From: a virus | Length of the DNA: 30,951 nt | Virus record (IMG/VR): IMGVR_UViG_3300002835_000740 | Span: 1-30,951 of that record | Strand: one strand, 5' to 3' | Shown: positions 5,629-28,748 of the stretch, piece by piece | Layout: every line of letters starts with the position of its first letter | How positions within the stretch are numbered: position 1 is the first letter of the stretch | Translations under genes and position numbers: made by a program | The notes under the pieces: generated by a model | The model's input: only the letters and a program-made list of their open reading frames with translations | What the model was told of the DNA's origin: nothing | The model's database searches: none

Positions 5629-6116
5629 AGACATTCACAGAGTAAGAGGTTACAGTCCTTGCCGGACAAAATATCGTTTACTTCAAAGTCAACGGCCACA
5701 AGGGTAAGCCCTCGCAGTCCGTCCGTTATATTTCGGTTGCCCGTCTCAGCGAAGAATACCTCCGTGCGCTCGGTAACGATGCGTGTAGCGGTATGCCCGT
5801 TGCGTGTTATTGCATCCACAAGAACCATTGACAGATTCTGCTCAGATGAGCCACGCATAATAGCCACGATGCGGCAAGATGTTGTGCGCTCATAGTATTG
5901 CACACGGCATCCACGGGCCTGCGCTGTCAGGCGGCTATCCTTCAGAGAACGGATGTAGAAGTAATTTCCGTAATCATCCCTAATGCCAACGTATTGGCGG
6001 TAAGTGTCCATTACCACATCAGTACCTGACGGCTTCTCGACATTGGCAAAGCCTGTATTCCACTCGCTGTACTTGGCGAGGAGATAGTCTTTGAGGTCGT
6101 TTAGTTTGCCGGTCAT
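5625..6116 (-). CDS. Neck protein, tail-terminator/head-tail joining candidate (163 aa)
   Basis: Starts at an ATG overlapping the upstream stop (ATGA). The N-terminal MTGKLNDLKDYLLAKYSEWN helix is followed by strands (YFYIRSLKDSRLTAQ, CRIVAIMRGSSEQNL, ALVDAITRNG-like segment). Length 163 and a helix-then-sheet arrangement fit the tail-terminator/head-tail joining family, which usually follows a gp10/Mu gpG-like gene as it does here. The C-terminus ends CNLLLCECL, three cysteines in nine residues. No motif is diagnostic, so the assignment is from order and fold pattern. Confidence 0.65.
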   Translation of the reverse strand: MTGKLNDLKDYLLAKYSEWNTGFANVEKPSGTDVVMDTYRQYVGIRDDYGNYFYIRSLKDSRLTAQARGCRVQYYERTTSCRIVAIMRGSSEQNLSMVLVDAITRNGHTATRIVTERTEVFFAETGNRNITDGLRGLTLVAVDFEVNDILSGKDCNLLLCECL

Positions 6117-23881: not shown

Positions 23882-24117
23882 GTTGCAAAGGTTGCAGAAT
23901 TAGTTGCAGCTGAAAGCCTACTGCCGCAAGGGTTGTTGCAAAGTTGCAAAGTTGCAGGGGTAGTTGCGGTATATCTTAGTATCATATTATATATATATAT
24001 ATATATTGATTTTTATATTCTTAGGAATCTTGCAACTTTGCAACTTTCCTTTGAAATATGCGCCATTGCTACATTTTTTGGTTGCAAAAAGTGCAACCAA
24101 ATTGCAACTTTTGCAAC
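23882..24117. other. Candidate replication origin: iterons around an AT-rich core
   Basis: The gap between primase and nuclease genes holds thirteen copies of a GTTGCA-type hexamer: eight forward (23882, 23891, 23903, 23935, 23943, 23951, 23963 as GTTGCG, 24081) and five reverse (24031, 24039, 24092, 24103, 24112). A 15-base perfect inverted repeat, 23935-23949 with 24030-24044, brackets about 80 bp that include a 19-base alternating TA tract (23988-24006). A seven-pair hairpin lies at 24080-24098. Clustered iterons, a melting-prone core and a neighbouring primase-helicase fit an origin; an operator array for the nuclease and late genes is the alternative. Confidence 0.65.
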
Positions 24118-24119
24118 TT

Positions 24120-26390
24120 TCAATAGTTCTTCTCATAGCTGCCTCGGTCTATTAGTGTAAATAAGGCCTTATTTCGGCTCAAAAATGATTTCAGAGTACC
24201 AACCTTCACACCAACCTCTTCAGCGGCTTTTTGGGCCGTTTGCAGCGTGAATAGAGCAGGTAGAGCATTATACAGCTTCTTGTAGTGTGCAGGGAGTTTA
24301 TCCACAGGTGTTTCAGGAGCAAGAATCTGCATCGCCTTGTGGATATTTCCGAGGAAGTATTCAGTCAATCGGGTAGCCTTCTCCATGCTTGATGCCTCAA
24401 CCACAGGTGCCGCAGGGTTGTTCATAATCTCAATCAGCAGGGCGAATCTTAGGCAATACTCCTGATACTTGGCGATGATGCCCTTGACATTGTCGTCATA
24501 CGCCTTGTTGTACTTAGCGCACTTGGCGTTGTACCACCGGGCCAGAACCGCCTCGGCCTCTGCCGTCATCTCAATCACTCTGCGTTGGTTGAATCTGAGC
24601 GACATCAGTTCGCTGAAGACAAGGTCATAGTCCTGAATGACACGCTCTGCGATGCGTACACGCTCCCATTCGGGCTTCGGCTGCGGATCAGGATAGCAAA
24701 ATAGGAATCGGTGGAAGAATCCGTTTTGACCGTTCTGATCCTTGCTAAGAATCTCAAGAACTCCCGGCTGAATGCCGCCAGCGATGCAGCAGAATGGGTC
24801 TCTGATATAGTTGTCTTCCCGTGTGATCCGTTGGAGCAGCAGCGTTTGGCATGACCATATTGAGAGCCACTTCTGCACCTCATCAGATTTCTCGTAGCGA
24901 TTCATTCTGTTGATGAATCCGCTCAACTCATCGGCATACACGCAGCAGCCTTCCTTGTTGTTGGTCAGAATCTTGACAACCATCTCAATAGTACTGTCTT
25001 CGATAATAATCTGCTCGCAGTTCGGCTTCTCAGGTTCTTCGCCTTTCTTCTTTCCGTCCTCCCATATCCGATTGAGTTGCTCATATTCTTTGAGCGCATC
25101 ACCGAATGCCTTGCGCCTGATGTCATCAATCGCTCGCAGGTATCTGAATGCCTTGCTCATGGCGGGTGTCTTGGATGCTCCGGGCGGTGCAACCACTACC
25201 ATGTACAGCACAGGACTGAGATCCCAGTTATCACCCGCCCTCAGCTTAACTGAGTTGCCGATGGTGGATGCCACGGCTGCAAGCATAAACGCACCCATGT
25301 ATTCGTGTTGGATATTTCGATGCGCAGAGATATAGTTGCTGAGTTCAACAGGGAATACATCCATCGGGAAGCGCAGTCGGTCTGAGGGCAGGAATACGGA
25401 TTCGATGGGTCTGTATGATTCCAACTGAATGCCGTGGCGCTTGGCAAGGTCTTTGATTCGGTCAATAGCGCATAGCCAGTTGCCCTTGCATCCGTAGTAG
25501 GCTATCAGCGTAGGTGTCAGCACCCAAGAATGGTCATGCTCATCAACACGGCTATGGAATGATGGAAAATCGGGAATGGATGATGTGAAGAGCAAGAGTT
25601 TCTTCCCTGCGTAGTACACCTTGGCTGAGTAGTCTGCGGTGCTGCCCTTGCGTAGGTACTTAAGGTGCTTGTCTTTATCTCTTCTGCGTTGGCCTTTGAT
25701 TTCAAACAATCCGATGTCATTGAGCATTTCTTCAAAGGCCGAATCGTTGCAGAAGCGGTCAAAGTGCAGAGCCATTGTTTCATACTCAATGGGATAGGTA
25801 GTGACAATGTGCTTGCTGTAATCATATTCCTGCGTGTATGCATTGAATGATAGGCTGATGGTGTTCATCACATCAAACTCATCCTCTGTGAGTTCTTCAA
25901 GTTCACTCAGGCTTCCGCTGATGATCTCATAGCCCGGTGTAGGATGGCAAAATGATAGCAGACCGCCCGTGTAGTTGCTGATTACTTCTGCGCCTGTTGC
26001 TGACTTGGCCAGCGTTTGCTTCTGCCTGATGCCGCTATACTTGCAATACACATGATAGCCGCCATTGCGTGTACGCTCAATGCAGACCTTGCTTGTGAAG
26101 TCCTCCATCTGACTGCACACGGCGTTGAGCCACTTGTCATAGATTGTCTTGTCCTCCGTATTCTTCATATCAAAGTCCACCATAAAGAACGGCGGAAACA
26201 GCTTGACTGCAAGGCCATTACACTTGCTGAAGCGGTCTGCCCACAGCCCAAGCAGTTCAGATTCCGTTGTGTTCGGAGTGACAATGCTATGCTCAGGATA
26301 TTCCGTAGCTTGCTTGGTAGCCTCATTCCATTGTATCGGTATCGGATGCAGTCCTGCACGCAGTAGGTCTACGAATTGGTCTAATTGCAT
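24120..26390 (-). CDS. Prim-pol-like/DUF3987 primase-helicase (756 aa)
   Basis: Likely the main replication initiator of the phage. N-terminal ~200 residues look like an archaeo-eukaryotic-type primase: FPPFFMVDFDMKN gives the metal-binding DxD at 72-74, and RTRNGGYHVYCKY at ~107-118 the histidine motif. The C-terminal half is a DUF3987 P-loop ATPase: Walker A APPGASKT at 401-408 and a Walker B-like CCVYADELSGF about 75 residues later, followed by the family's IAGGIQPGVLEIL segment. The frame begins at an ATG ten bases beyond the U tract of a structured leader RNA, and ends at the iteron region. A consensus DnaA box lies in its 3' end. Confidence 0.85.
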   Translation of the reverse strand: MQLDQFVDLLRAGLHPIPIQWNEATKQATEYPEHSIVTPNTTESELLGLWADRFSKCNGLAVKLFPPFFMVDFDMKNTEDKTIYDKWLNAVCSQMEDFTSKVCIERTRNGGYHVYCKYSGIRQKQTLAKSATGAEVISNYTGGLLSFCHPTPGYEIISGSLSELEELTEDEFDVMNTISLSFNAYTQEYDYSKHIVTTYPIEYETMALHFDRFCNDSAFEEMLNDIGLFEIKGQRRRDKDKHLKYLRKGSTADYSAKVYYAGKKLLLFTSSIPDFPSFHSRVDEHDHSWVLTPTLIAYYGCKGNWLCAIDRIKDLAKRHGIQLESYRPIESVFLPSDRLRFPMDVFPVELSNYISAHRNIQHEYMGAFMLAAVASTIGNSVKLRAGDNWDLSPVLYMVVVAPPGASKTPAMSKAFRYLRAIDDIRRKAFGDALKEYEQLNRIWEDGKKKGEEPEKPNCEQIIIEDSTIEMVVKILTNNKEGCCVYADELSGFINRMNRYEKSDEVQKWLSIWSCQTLLLQRITREDNYIRDPFCCIAGGIQPGVLEILSKDQNGQNGFFHRFLFCYPDPQPKPEWERVRIAERVIQDYDLVFSELMSLRFNQRRVIEMTAEAEAVLARWYNAKCAKYNKAYDDNVKGIIAKYQEYCLRFALLIEIMNNPAAPVVEASSMEKATRLTEYFLGNIHKAMQILAPETPVDKLPAHYKKLYNALPALFTLQTAQKAAEEVGVKVGTLKSFLSRNKALFTLIDRGSYEKNY
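24298..24306 (+). promoter_or_regulatory. Consensus DnaA box (TTATCCACA) near candidate origin
   Basis: Exact TTATCCACA inside the 3' end of the primase gene, about 180 bp from the iterons. A one-mismatch match on the other strand (TGTGGATAT) is at 24338-24346. In coding sequence, so chance cannot be excluded, but the phage encodes a DnaA domain IV protein. Confidence 0.4.
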
Positions 26391-26400
26391 TGGTTGGGAT

Positions 26401-26521
26401 AAAAAATCCCCTCACGAAGCCTCCCGGTAGCACCCCGACAAGTCGGGCAGGAAGCCCCGTGAGGGGCGATGATATTGTGATTGATTGCGGGTGCTACGCC
26501 GCTGAGTGGTAAGAACTACGA
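26401..26521 (-). ncRNA. Structured RNA leader/attenuator candidate upstream of primase
   Basis: On the minus strand three nested helices are seen. The outer pairs 26458-26466 with 26408-26416 (9 perfect pairs). The middle pairs 26448-26454 with 26420-26426 (7 pairs, two or three G-U). The inner is CCCGA-CTTG-TCGGG at 26434-26447, with a stable CUUG tetraloop. Six U (26406-26401) follow, as in an intrinsic terminator, ten bases before the primase ATG. A 5' segment, GTAGCACCC (26497-26489), is exactly complementary to GGGTGCTAC (26435-26427) inside the fold, allowing a pseudoknot or an alternative, antiterminating structure. A TATTTTTG box lies just upstream. It may be a small RNA, an attenuator or a riboswitch-like element controlling the primase. 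Confidence 0.5.
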
Positions 26522-26529
26522 CAAAAATA
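26522..26529 (-). promoter_or_regulatory. Possible -7 box (TATTTTTG) for the structured leader
   Basis: The minus strand reads TATTTTTG, matching TAnnTTTG, 10 bases after the zinc-ribbon stop and 56 bases before the outer stem. No -33 TTG at proper spacing was found. Confidence 0.3.
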
Positions 26530-26539
26530 TAGGCATTGG

Positions 26540-26785
26540 CTATGCACATCTGCGGGAATTATGCACATTCAGCATCGCCCTTACTGCGGCTCTGATAAGC
26601 CGAGAGTGTTCGGTTCGCTCGGATGAGCAGATAGGGCATCGTGGTGTGAGGTACCGTGCAGCACCGCAGTCAAGGCATAACTCTACGAGCCTACTCGTTA
26701 CAGCTTGTAACGGATTGCATTTGGGCTGCTTGGTCAGCTTAAGGCCGATGCTGGCTGTAAAGTTATGCCATGCTGTGGTCATCAT
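26540..26785 (-). CDS. Small zinc-ribbon protein (81 aa)
   Basis: The ATG at 26785 overlaps the SSB-like stop (TGATG). A four-cysteine zinc ribbon is visible: CLDCG at residues 37-41 and CPICSSE at 50-56 (CxxC-x9-CxxC), preceded by a basic region (LKLTKQPKCNPLQAVTSRLV) and followed by a helix (SRLIRAAVRAMLNVH). Such proteins bind nucleic acid or tether replication proteins. Located between the SSB-like and primase genes, it may aid replication. There is no family name I can give with certainty. Confidence 0.68.
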   Translation of the reverse strand: MMTTAWHNFTASIGLKLTKQPKCNPLQAVTSRLVELCLDCGAARYLTPRCPICSSERTEHSRLIRAAVRAMLNVHNSRRCA

Positions 26786-27156
26786 CAGAATGGTAGGTCT
26801 GTTGATTCAGCAGGAGCCTCTGTGGGGAATTGCGATGCGATGTCCGTTGGTTCGGCTTGCGCAGCTTCGATTCTCCAAGCATCCAGCGTATTGAACCATT
26901 TAGGCGTGCCTGTCTTCGGGTCATCCCACTTGCGGCCCCGCAGGTTGTAACTGATTGTGACAGACTGCCCGACTGCGATGTTGTACTTCTCAATCAAGTC
27001 GCAGCGGTCTTGGCTGAGTTGGAACTGCACCTCTTGTGGGTACTGCGAATCAAGGTCTGTGCGCAGGATTACATTGCGGCAGCGGAATTTCTCGGACTTT
27101 GTTTCGATTGGCCCGATGTTGATGATTTGCCCGGAGGCTGTTGGTGAATTGCTCAT
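26785..27156 (-). CDS. DUF3127 SSB-like protein (123 aa)
   Basis: Single-stranded-DNA-binding-type OB-fold protein of the DUF3127 family, widespread in Bacteroidota. Family features: EKFRCRNVILRTD near the start, YPQEVQFQLSQDRCDLIEKY, then ISYNLRGRKWDDPKTG and KWFNTLDAWRIEAA. The tail becomes acidic and ends ESTDLPF, like the DDDLPF tip through which SSB recruits partners. It would coat single-stranded DNA in replication and RecT annealing. The start is the ATG at 27156 after a 74-bp gap. Confidence 0.87.
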   Translation of the reverse strand: MSNSPTASGQIINIGPIETKSEKFRCRNVILRTDLDSQYPQEVQFQLSQDRCDLIEKYNIAVGQSVTISYNLRGRKWDDPKTGTPKWFNTLDAWRIEAAQAEPTDIASQFPTEAPAESTDLPF

Positions 27157-27806: not shown

Positions 27807-28211
27807 TCATTGTCCATTAGGATGAATTGTACAGCCATTCGGGTACCATTTATCACCACCTGTAAACCTTACACACTTGCATCCATTCTGTTCATTCATC
27901 AGGTCTTCTGCCGTCTGTTCAAGCCTTCTCAGACGCTCATCGTCAAGGGTGAGGGCCATGAATAGGATGTTATCGAATGCTATTGTTTCCCAGTTATCGG
28001 CTATCTCTTTACGGATTACCGCTGCGAGTTCAGGCGTTGTGCGAAGGCAAATATCCCGCTCGATGCTTTCGGCTTTTTTTCGGGTATCCGTTAGGAACTT
28101 TTTTGCCGTTCCGCTAATCTTTTCTTCGATGATGATCTGATCGATATACCGCTTCATATTGGCAGCGGCGACCAATACGGCTTTAATGTACAATGTTGCT
28201 GAGTTATTCAT
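27807..28211 (-). CDS. Hypothetical helical protein with C-terminal Cys cluster (134 aa)
   Basis: Not recognised. The ATG at 28211 overlaps the DnaA-like stop (ATGA), so it is coupled to that gene. It is helical throughout (LYIKAVLVAAANMKRYIDQI, TRKKAESIERDICLRTTPEL, LDDERLRRLEQTAEDLMNEQ), then ends with CKCVRFTGGDKWYPNGCTIH, holding three cysteines and a histidine that could bind a metal. Coupling suggests it may partner the DnaA-like protein in replication or host DNA interaction. Confidence 0.68.
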   Translation of the reverse strand: MNNSATLYIKAVLVAAANMKRYIDQIIIEEKISGTAKKFLTDTRKKAESIERDICLRTTPELAAVIRKEIADNWETIAFDNILFMALTLDDERLRRLEQTAEDLMNEQNGCKCVRFTGGDKWYPNGCTIHPNGQ

Positions 28212-28642
28212 GCGGCATATTGTTTTAGATGCAGCCCTGTAATCGCCGGGCATGGGTAACGCTGCGCTGAGTAGTGCTGCCTTGCGATGCCTATAGCGTG
28301 GTTGAGTGCTGCGGCTACATGGTCCACGCTGCGACCAACATGGCCGATTACATTGCAGGCGTGCAGTACTGTGGTATGGTCAGCACCGCCCACTACTGTT
28401 AGCCTGCCTGTTTCCGTTAGCTGCATCCCGCAGCCACGCACAAGGGCGAACTGAAGTACCTGCCGTGCATCGACAATGTTCCGCACCCTGCGAGGTATGA
28501 AGATGTCCGCTGCGTTGAGCCGGAAGAATGGTGCGATAGATTCCGCAAGCTGCTGCACGATAGGCGGCAGGCTGTGGTAGTGGTCTGATGTTACTGCTGC
28601 GTATCGCTTGCGCAGTTCTGTGATGTTGACTGTTTTTGGCAT
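28208..28642 (-). CDS. Stand-alone DnaA domain IV-like DNA-binding protein (144 aa)
   Basis: Corresponds to only the C-terminal DNA-binding domain of the bacterial replication initiator DnaA. Residues ~34-110: IAPFFRLNAADIFIPRRVRN is the basic loop of domain IV, IVDARQVLQFALVRG the next helix, and GGADHTTVLHACNVIGH at 85-101 the DnaA signature (consensus GGRDHTTVLHA). No AAA+ ATPase is present, so it cannot assemble into a DnaA filament by itself. The ATG at 28642 is chosen over upstream starts inside a tRNA-like element. It may bind DnaA boxes on phage or host DNA, recruiting or excluding host DnaA. Confidence 0.85.
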   Translation of the reverse strand: MPKTVNITELRKRYAAVTSDHYHSLPPIVQQLAESIAPFFRLNAADIFIPRRVRNIVDARQVLQFALVRGCGMQLTETGRLTVVGGADHTTVLHACNVIGHVGRSVDHVAAALNHAIGIARQHYSAQRYPCPAITGLHLKQYAA

Positions 28643-28658
28643 ATTGTTGTTTCTGTTG

Positions 28659-28748
28659 CCCCATGTACGGGAATCGAACACGTGTCCCGCAGCCCTTCTG
28701 CTGCGATTCTACCATGTGTGGCTACTTAGCCCTCCGAACTAACAGGGG
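28659..28748 (-). other. tRNA-like element (90 nt), degenerate
   Basis: Between RecT and the DnaA-like gene the minus strand has a T-arm-like sequence, ACGTG-TTCGATT-CCCGT (28683-28667), four of five pairs, followed by ACATGGG, which pairs six of seven with CCCCTGT at the 5' end (28748-28742). CGCAG-CAGAAGG-CTGCG could be an anticodon arm but lacks U33, and no consistent D-arm can be fitted with it. It may be a decayed tRNA, a tRNA mimic or a long-variable-arm form. No functional tRNA is claimed. Confidence 0.35.

Follow-up and report, generated by a model that had tools for sequence, protein, structure and literature searches.

The gap in front of a primase-helicase-like gene in the window analysed here, a 30,951-base IMG/VR virus record with its genes on the minus strand, is predicted to encode an RNA whose 5' hairpin forms a kissing helix with the inside of an intrinsic terminator. 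Judged from its sequence, this RNA is one member of an architecture that recurs in Bacteroidota phages with unrelated sequences: a putative TAnnTTTG promoter comes first, then a 5' hairpin with a 6-10 nt 'address' in its loop. After a linker poor in G there is a predicted terminator, whose inner loop or bulge is complementary to the address and whose U tract stops a short distance ahead of the gene that opens a replication operon. We lean towards the view, with some reserve, that such leaders act as conditional terminators, which would gate read-through into the replication operon while also releasing a small RNA.

Layout and fold of the leader

The structural genes of the window extend to about 22 kb and are followed by a methylase, the DUF3987 primase-helicase, the gap, an 81-aa CxxC protein, an SSB-like DUF3127 protein, a DnaA-C-domain protein and RecT. 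The gene downstream of the element (24120..26390, minus strand; Pfam PF13148, E=1e-56; PHROG DNA helicase/primase) has its ATG at 26390. Upstream lies the gene for the 81-aa protein with two CxxC motifs (26540..26785, minus strand), which ends 10 nt before the promoter box and overlaps the SSB stop codon; the protein is conserved at 85% in L013 and 58% in L014, two relatives found with RecT as the query. The SSB-like protein (26785..27156, minus strand; Pfam PF11325, phrog_4932) ends in DLPF, and its gene marks a conserved order: SSB module, RNA element, replication gene. Repeats also occur in this neighbourhood. The direct repeat TATGCACAT is found twice, 19 nt apart, at 26541-26568 inside the end of the 81-aa gene, just upstream of the promoter; TTATGCACA resembles a DnaA box, and a DnaA-C-domain protein is encoded at 28208-28681. 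After the primase gene (23890-24140), repeated GTTGCA/TGCAAC words are iteron-like and may belong to an origin or operator.

On the minus strand the gap holds, in order, the box, AGUUCUU from 26517, a hairpin P1, a linker, a hairpin P2 and six U. The candidate promoter box TATTTTTG (26529-26522) fits the Bacteroidota-type -7 consensus TAnnTTTG, without a clear -33 element, and sits 4 nt before the AGUUCUU start; its counterparts in L013 (TATATTTG) and L014 (TATCTTCG) keep the same 4-nt distance. In F. johnsoniae, which has a weak -33 motif, transcription starts 4-5 nt past the box (PMC6847099), a spacing with which A26517 as the predicted start would agree. Conservation in L013 and L014 begins at AGUUCUU, and the sequence upstream of the box is not conserved. 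The whole RNA, taken from AGUUCUU to the U run with this conservation as a guide, would measure ~117 nt (26401..26517).

P1 (26487..26502) consists of a 4-bp stem, GCGG/CCGC, and the loop C-GUAGCAC, in which the 7-nt segment GUAGCAC (26491..26497) is complementary to GUGCUAC (26427..26433), an equally long unpaired bulge on the 3' side of P2. The linker from P1 to the terminator (26467..26486) is nearly G-free. P2 (26408..26466) stacks 19 pairs, followed by the 7-nt bulge, 5 inner pairs and a CUUG loop, and it has the sequence features of an intrinsic terminator, a G+C-rich hairpin with a U tract (U6, 26401..26406) directly after it; U tracts are also found in L013 and L014. Ten nucleotides separate the U tract from the primase start codon. 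The RNA has a minimum free energy (MFE) of -49.5 kcal/mol, whereas shuffles average -36.5 (z = -4.1; 0/200 shuffles as low), and P2, at about -42 kcal/mol, is the strongest among the terminator-like hairpins listed by a scan of the window.

A preliminary description of this DNA had drawn a terminator-like RNA with six U in the gap and a box just upstream, and all the features it described are present on the minus strand. Of its nested helices (9, 7 and 5 pairs with a CUUG loop), the outer one of 9 perfect pairs (CCCCUCACG/CGUGAGGGG) and the inner one with its loop are confirmed, but the middle one was an undercount: in the MFE fold the outer helix continues unbroken onto about 10 further pairs. 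The nine-base complementarity that it reported between 26489-26497 and 26427-26435 is exact, yet only the central 7 bp are conserved; since the two outer pairs are not, the true unit would be a 7-nt loop fitting a 7-nt bulge.

That the RNA belongs to no known class, as also proposed there, agrees with a search of Rfam 15, in which the elements of the window, L013, the Flavobacterium moomin phages, phi19:1 and L028 gave no match at gathering score. Pseudoknots combined with terminators are riboswitch-like; we nevertheless give a metabolite riboswitch hardly any credence, given the negative Rfam result, the lack across families of a conserved sequence pocket that could form a ligand core, and neighbours that are replication rather than metabolic genes. 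The leader also does not resemble a leader-peptide attenuator: no ATG precedes the terminator in the window or L013 leader, and GTG/TTG frames run through or are not common to the relatives.

Compensatory changes in two phage families

L013 and L014 carry homologous leaders, both after the same 81-aa gene. Across the three sequences (window, L013, L014), 99% of 34 pairs are standard and 7 show compensatory double changes, a result seen in 0/500 shuffles (sequences within a family are related, and shuffle counts are not strict probabilities); slid versions of the alignment reach 50% paired positions and at most 2 double-change pairs. Two of the seven double changes are in the pseudoknot and four in the P2 helices, so that compensation falls in exactly the helices that the preliminary description had named for such a check. 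One pair of the P1 stem is G-C in the window and A-U in L013 and L014. The pseudoknot keeps 7/7 pairs, as GUAGCAC/GUGCUAC in the window and GUGGAAC/GUUCCAC in the relatives, and RecT is 94-97% identical between phages whose address thus differs on both strands.

The preliminary description had left a choice between a terminator-like fold and another state, or a pseudoknot. The pseudoknot holds; a simple either/or does not, for in the conserved form the loop can kiss the bulge of the completed terminator, and for this reason the kiss need not be an antiterminator. A candidate antiterminator, in which the 5' arm of the terminator would pair over 19 nt with the upstream gene, was discarded when inspection by eye found it not kept in L013. 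Control of the primase, as claimed there, proved too narrow and is unsupported in that form: the next gene is a ResIII/DEAD-type helicase fragment in L013, a Prim-Pol/DUF3987 protein about 25% identical to that of the window in L014, and other replication genes in the isolates discussed below.

The Flavobacterium moomin phages tooticki, mymlan, morran and snusmum9-1 (4 haplotypes) provide an independent family. Here all four keep 8/8 pairs of the kissing helix, and 3 of its positions covary (GUGAGACG/CGUCUCAC, GUGGAACG/CGUUCCAC, GUGAGAAG/CUUCUCAC); the inner and outer terminator stems covary as well, all 26 pairs are standard, and 0/500 shuffles are as good. The loop pairing of a kissing RNA is thereby backed by compensatory changes in two families. 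Loop geometry also recurs: one loop is AA followed by an 8-mer, and its partner is an 8-mer followed by about 5 nt. In the moomin phages it is P1 that carries the AA + 8-mer loop, and the roles are swapped in FL-1, L028 and phi18:3.

These data weigh on two simpler readings. The element could be an ordinary terminator at an operon boundary, with the pairing to the 5' hairpin as mere decoration; the textbook hairpin with its U tract would suit this, as would an upstream module that is conserved while the downstream genes change. Compensatory changes in the kissing helix of two separate families, recurrence tied to a promoter box and a start codon that follows without room for a promoter nonetheless make it very improbable. 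Alternatively, the DNA itself could be the functional form, as a replication origin, a protein-binding inverted repeat or a primase hairpin, next to replication genes and a DnaA-C-domain gene and with the direct repeats TATGCACAT just upstream. We regard this too as highly unlikely: the minus strand of the window keeps several G-U pairs that would become A-C mismatches on the opposite strand, whose score is also much lower (20 vs 143 bits with the covariance model described next; folding energies were also compared), and in every family the element starts at the predicted promoter start and ends in a U tract.

A covariance model (R1) built on the window's version recovers the window, L013 and L014 at 115-143 bits. 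Applied to everything fetched, it found these three and no distant member; its 0 matches in 396 Bacteroidota genomes are uninformative, the model being sequence-bound. The window's own version has only three homologues in the collections, two of them close. A protein search of viral contigs with the primase found no relative, the DUF3987 alignment was too divergent for scanning, and searching viral and genome contigs for leader DNA patterns returned only the two known relatives or chance matches.

Recurrence ahead of replication genes

Distant members came instead from a scan for the architecture, in which a unit was a TAnnTTTG box followed by an intrinsic terminator and the complementarity between leader and hairpin interior was compared with dinucleotide shuffles of the leader. 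In contigs related by RecT or SSB, 9/39 boxed units reached p<=0.01 versus 5/517 hairpins without a box, and one of those five is probably L014's own element, whose box is TATCTTCG. The contig matches are G003, G004, G006/G008, L028, a second element in L014 and the window. Among isolates, the scan identified Flavobacterium phages FL-1, 11b, morran9-1, tooticki6-1 and mymlan6-1 and Cellulophaga phages phi18:3, phi19:3, phi13:2 and phi46:3; Polaribacter phages Freya_1 and Danklef_1 and Cellulophaga phages phi10:1, phi19:1 and Nekkels_1 were added by eye from the gap before their replication genes. In the combined set (705 kb), 12/131 distinct units reached p<=0.01 where 1.3 were expected, and all 12 are this kissing-terminator element; in unrelated DNA from phages and bacteria (426 kb), 0/5 units passed. 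As phages were sampled via RecT and SSB, these counts do not give prevalence. Complementarity to the element's own partner averages 7.8 nt against 4.6 nt with the interiors of other phages (P = 1e-11), and in L028 the true kiss is 8 nt.

The second look-alike in L014 (10050-10180), exposed by the terminator scan of the relatives, combines TATCTTTG, P1 as CCAU-GUGCAG-AUGG, a G-free linker and the terminator loop CUGCAC, before a 61-aa ORF; it is the weakest member, with a 6-nt kiss only (p 0.005 on leader shuffles). Variations on the pairing also occur. In Nekkels_1 (L117, about 5888-6050) there are two separate kissing pairs, AUUGGAA/UUCCAAU and GUCUAAC/GUUAGAC, and in L089 (minus strand, 5495) and G003 it is the extreme 5' end of the transcript (10 nt), not a hairpin loop, that matches the terminator loop.

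We did not count an AT-rich scan match in L021, AT-rich matches of 8-11 nt without a box were treated as chance, and the candidates in the Maribacter Panino gap and in Bacteroides phages B40-8 and B124-14 were not accepted as members. In the latter two (L118, minus strand; L119, 2931-3060, plus strand) there is a weak conserved candidate, GCAACG/CGUUGC with the hairpin GGGAUGU...ACAUCCC, which in B124-14 lies on the strand opposite to the phage genes. No recognisable element was found in the related phages P12024L, Fpv5, Gundel_1, BS-TP2 and Porphyromonas 005b.

Members mostly share their surroundings: the 5' neighbours are SSB, DnaA-domain or recombination genes and the 3' neighbours primase, helicase, replisome-organiser-like or DnaC-operon genes, and the order of SSB module, element and replication gene recurs in L028 and several isolates. 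Over 15 elements the linker has a G fraction of about 0-0.23, in most cases under 0.15. The distance between U tract and start codon is about 4-50 nt, from 4 nt in L013, which leaves no space for another promoter, to ~50 nt behind the terminator in the moomin phages, where there is some room for other signals. A conserved GGTAATCTTAAAACC-like motif lies between terminator and start codon in L106, L107, L112, L114 and L098 (Flavobacterium moomin and Cellulophaga phages). GUNNNAC recurs in 6/17 address helices, more than chance for a motif noticed after seeing the data, which suggests that the addresses carry some sequence preference and are not freely variable.

Proposed read-through, small RNA and specificity

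How could such a leader work? Transcription would begin at about 26517 and the second address segment, once out of the polymerase, would be free to pair with the P1 loop; the terminator hairpin would close next, so that most transcripts would stop there, giving a small, compact RNA that the kissing helix holds together. Since the stretch behind the terminator is too short to hold a separate promoter, the replication gene would then depend entirely on read-through from the leader's or upstream promoters. How often this happens may be tuned by the kissing contact, either in cis or when a second copy or some factor blocks it in trans. We infer the transcript ends, the termination efficiency and regulation by the kissing helix from the layout described above. 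In folds of shortened RNAs, the address helix belongs to the nested MFE structure in 13/15 elements and is replaced in most when the terminator is completed, the finished terminator being the thermodynamic winner; the pairing could therefore be the earlier of the two, later surviving as a kiss on the closed terminator or else holding back its closure. At -42 kcal/mol, however, the terminator greatly outweighs a kiss of 7 bp, so it is not evident that the RNA would switch.

It is also possible, if less likely, that the product of interest is a trans-acting phage small RNA, a stable RNA of ~117 nt that pairs with or titrates host or phage targets, with read-through as an incidental consequence. 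The element has its own candidate promoter box and a very strong predicted terminator, the gene behind it is exchangeable (a helicase in L013, a different DUF3987 protein in L014), and all members share a compact kissed fold; IsrK of Gifsy-1 sets a precedent from a prophage, in which a small terminated RNA is made along with a read-through mRNA (PMC4825925). Against this, the conserved site directly before replication operons suggests a role in cis, complements to the conserved 5' end AGUUCUUACC elsewhere in the window do not exceed chance, and the families share no sequence usable as a common target site.

In another scenario, the terminated RNA of one phage copy could kiss, in trans, a leader still being transcribed from a second copy and raise termination before the replication genes, which would make it a copy-number or superinfection-immunity RNA with the address as its specificity. 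The address does change on both strands between phages with 94-97% identical RecT, as a specificity determinant would, and between close moomin relatives; the element lies ahead of replication genes; and phage P4 is reported to stop its own replication genes via RNA pairing with leader sequences (PMC4825925). We nonetheless find this reading doubtful: intramolecular pairing would compete, most isolates look virulent, and with GUNNNAC in 6/17 the addresses are not freely variable.

In the repZ leaders of IncI-alpha and IncB plasmids, a hairpin loop pairs with a downstream hairpin before the replication gene, and loop changes alter specificity; these leaders act on translation together with an antisense RNA. 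The kissing element, by contrast, has a predicted intrinsic terminator as its downstream hairpin, and no antisense RNA was identified for it. Among phage RNAs, the CI RNA of P4 and RNAs of the IsrK-SeqA type are described as untranslated, with segments that complement each other, and as lying in front of phage replication genes; the control proposed is premature termination (PMC4825925). The kissing element likewise lies ahead of replication genes and has complementary leader segments. P4 CI differs in being processed from a longer leader and in pairing with two outside segments, seqA and seqC, whereas the partner in our element is inside a predicted intrinsic terminator immediately in front of the gene, and its hosts belong to the phylum Bacteroidota. 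IsrK of the Salmonella prophage Gifsy-1 is alike in that one promoter yields a short terminated small RNA and a read-through mRNA, but it differs in host, sequence and downstream genes, and no kissing terminator is reported in the part of the source consulted (PMC4825925). No description of an RNA like ours was found in the open-access literature.

RNA control of replication in Bacteroidota phages, which are important both in the gut and in the sea, is little described, and the element offers a defined, testable RNA at the entry of the replication operon in several cultured phages. A bolder and tentative proposal would be that Bacteroidota phages widely carry a hitherto unrecognised type of regulatory RNA, defined by a 5' hairpin that kisses the loop of an intrinsic terminator ahead of the replication operon; conserved in shape and place though not in its letters, and with a fast-changing, covarying address, it might be a self-specific switch of replication, for copy number or immunity. 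Should the kissing helix set read-through, it would constitute a compact, sequence-programmable terminator. Homology-based RNA searches miss the element because its architecture and position are conserved and its sequence is not, which suggests that other such classes may exist.
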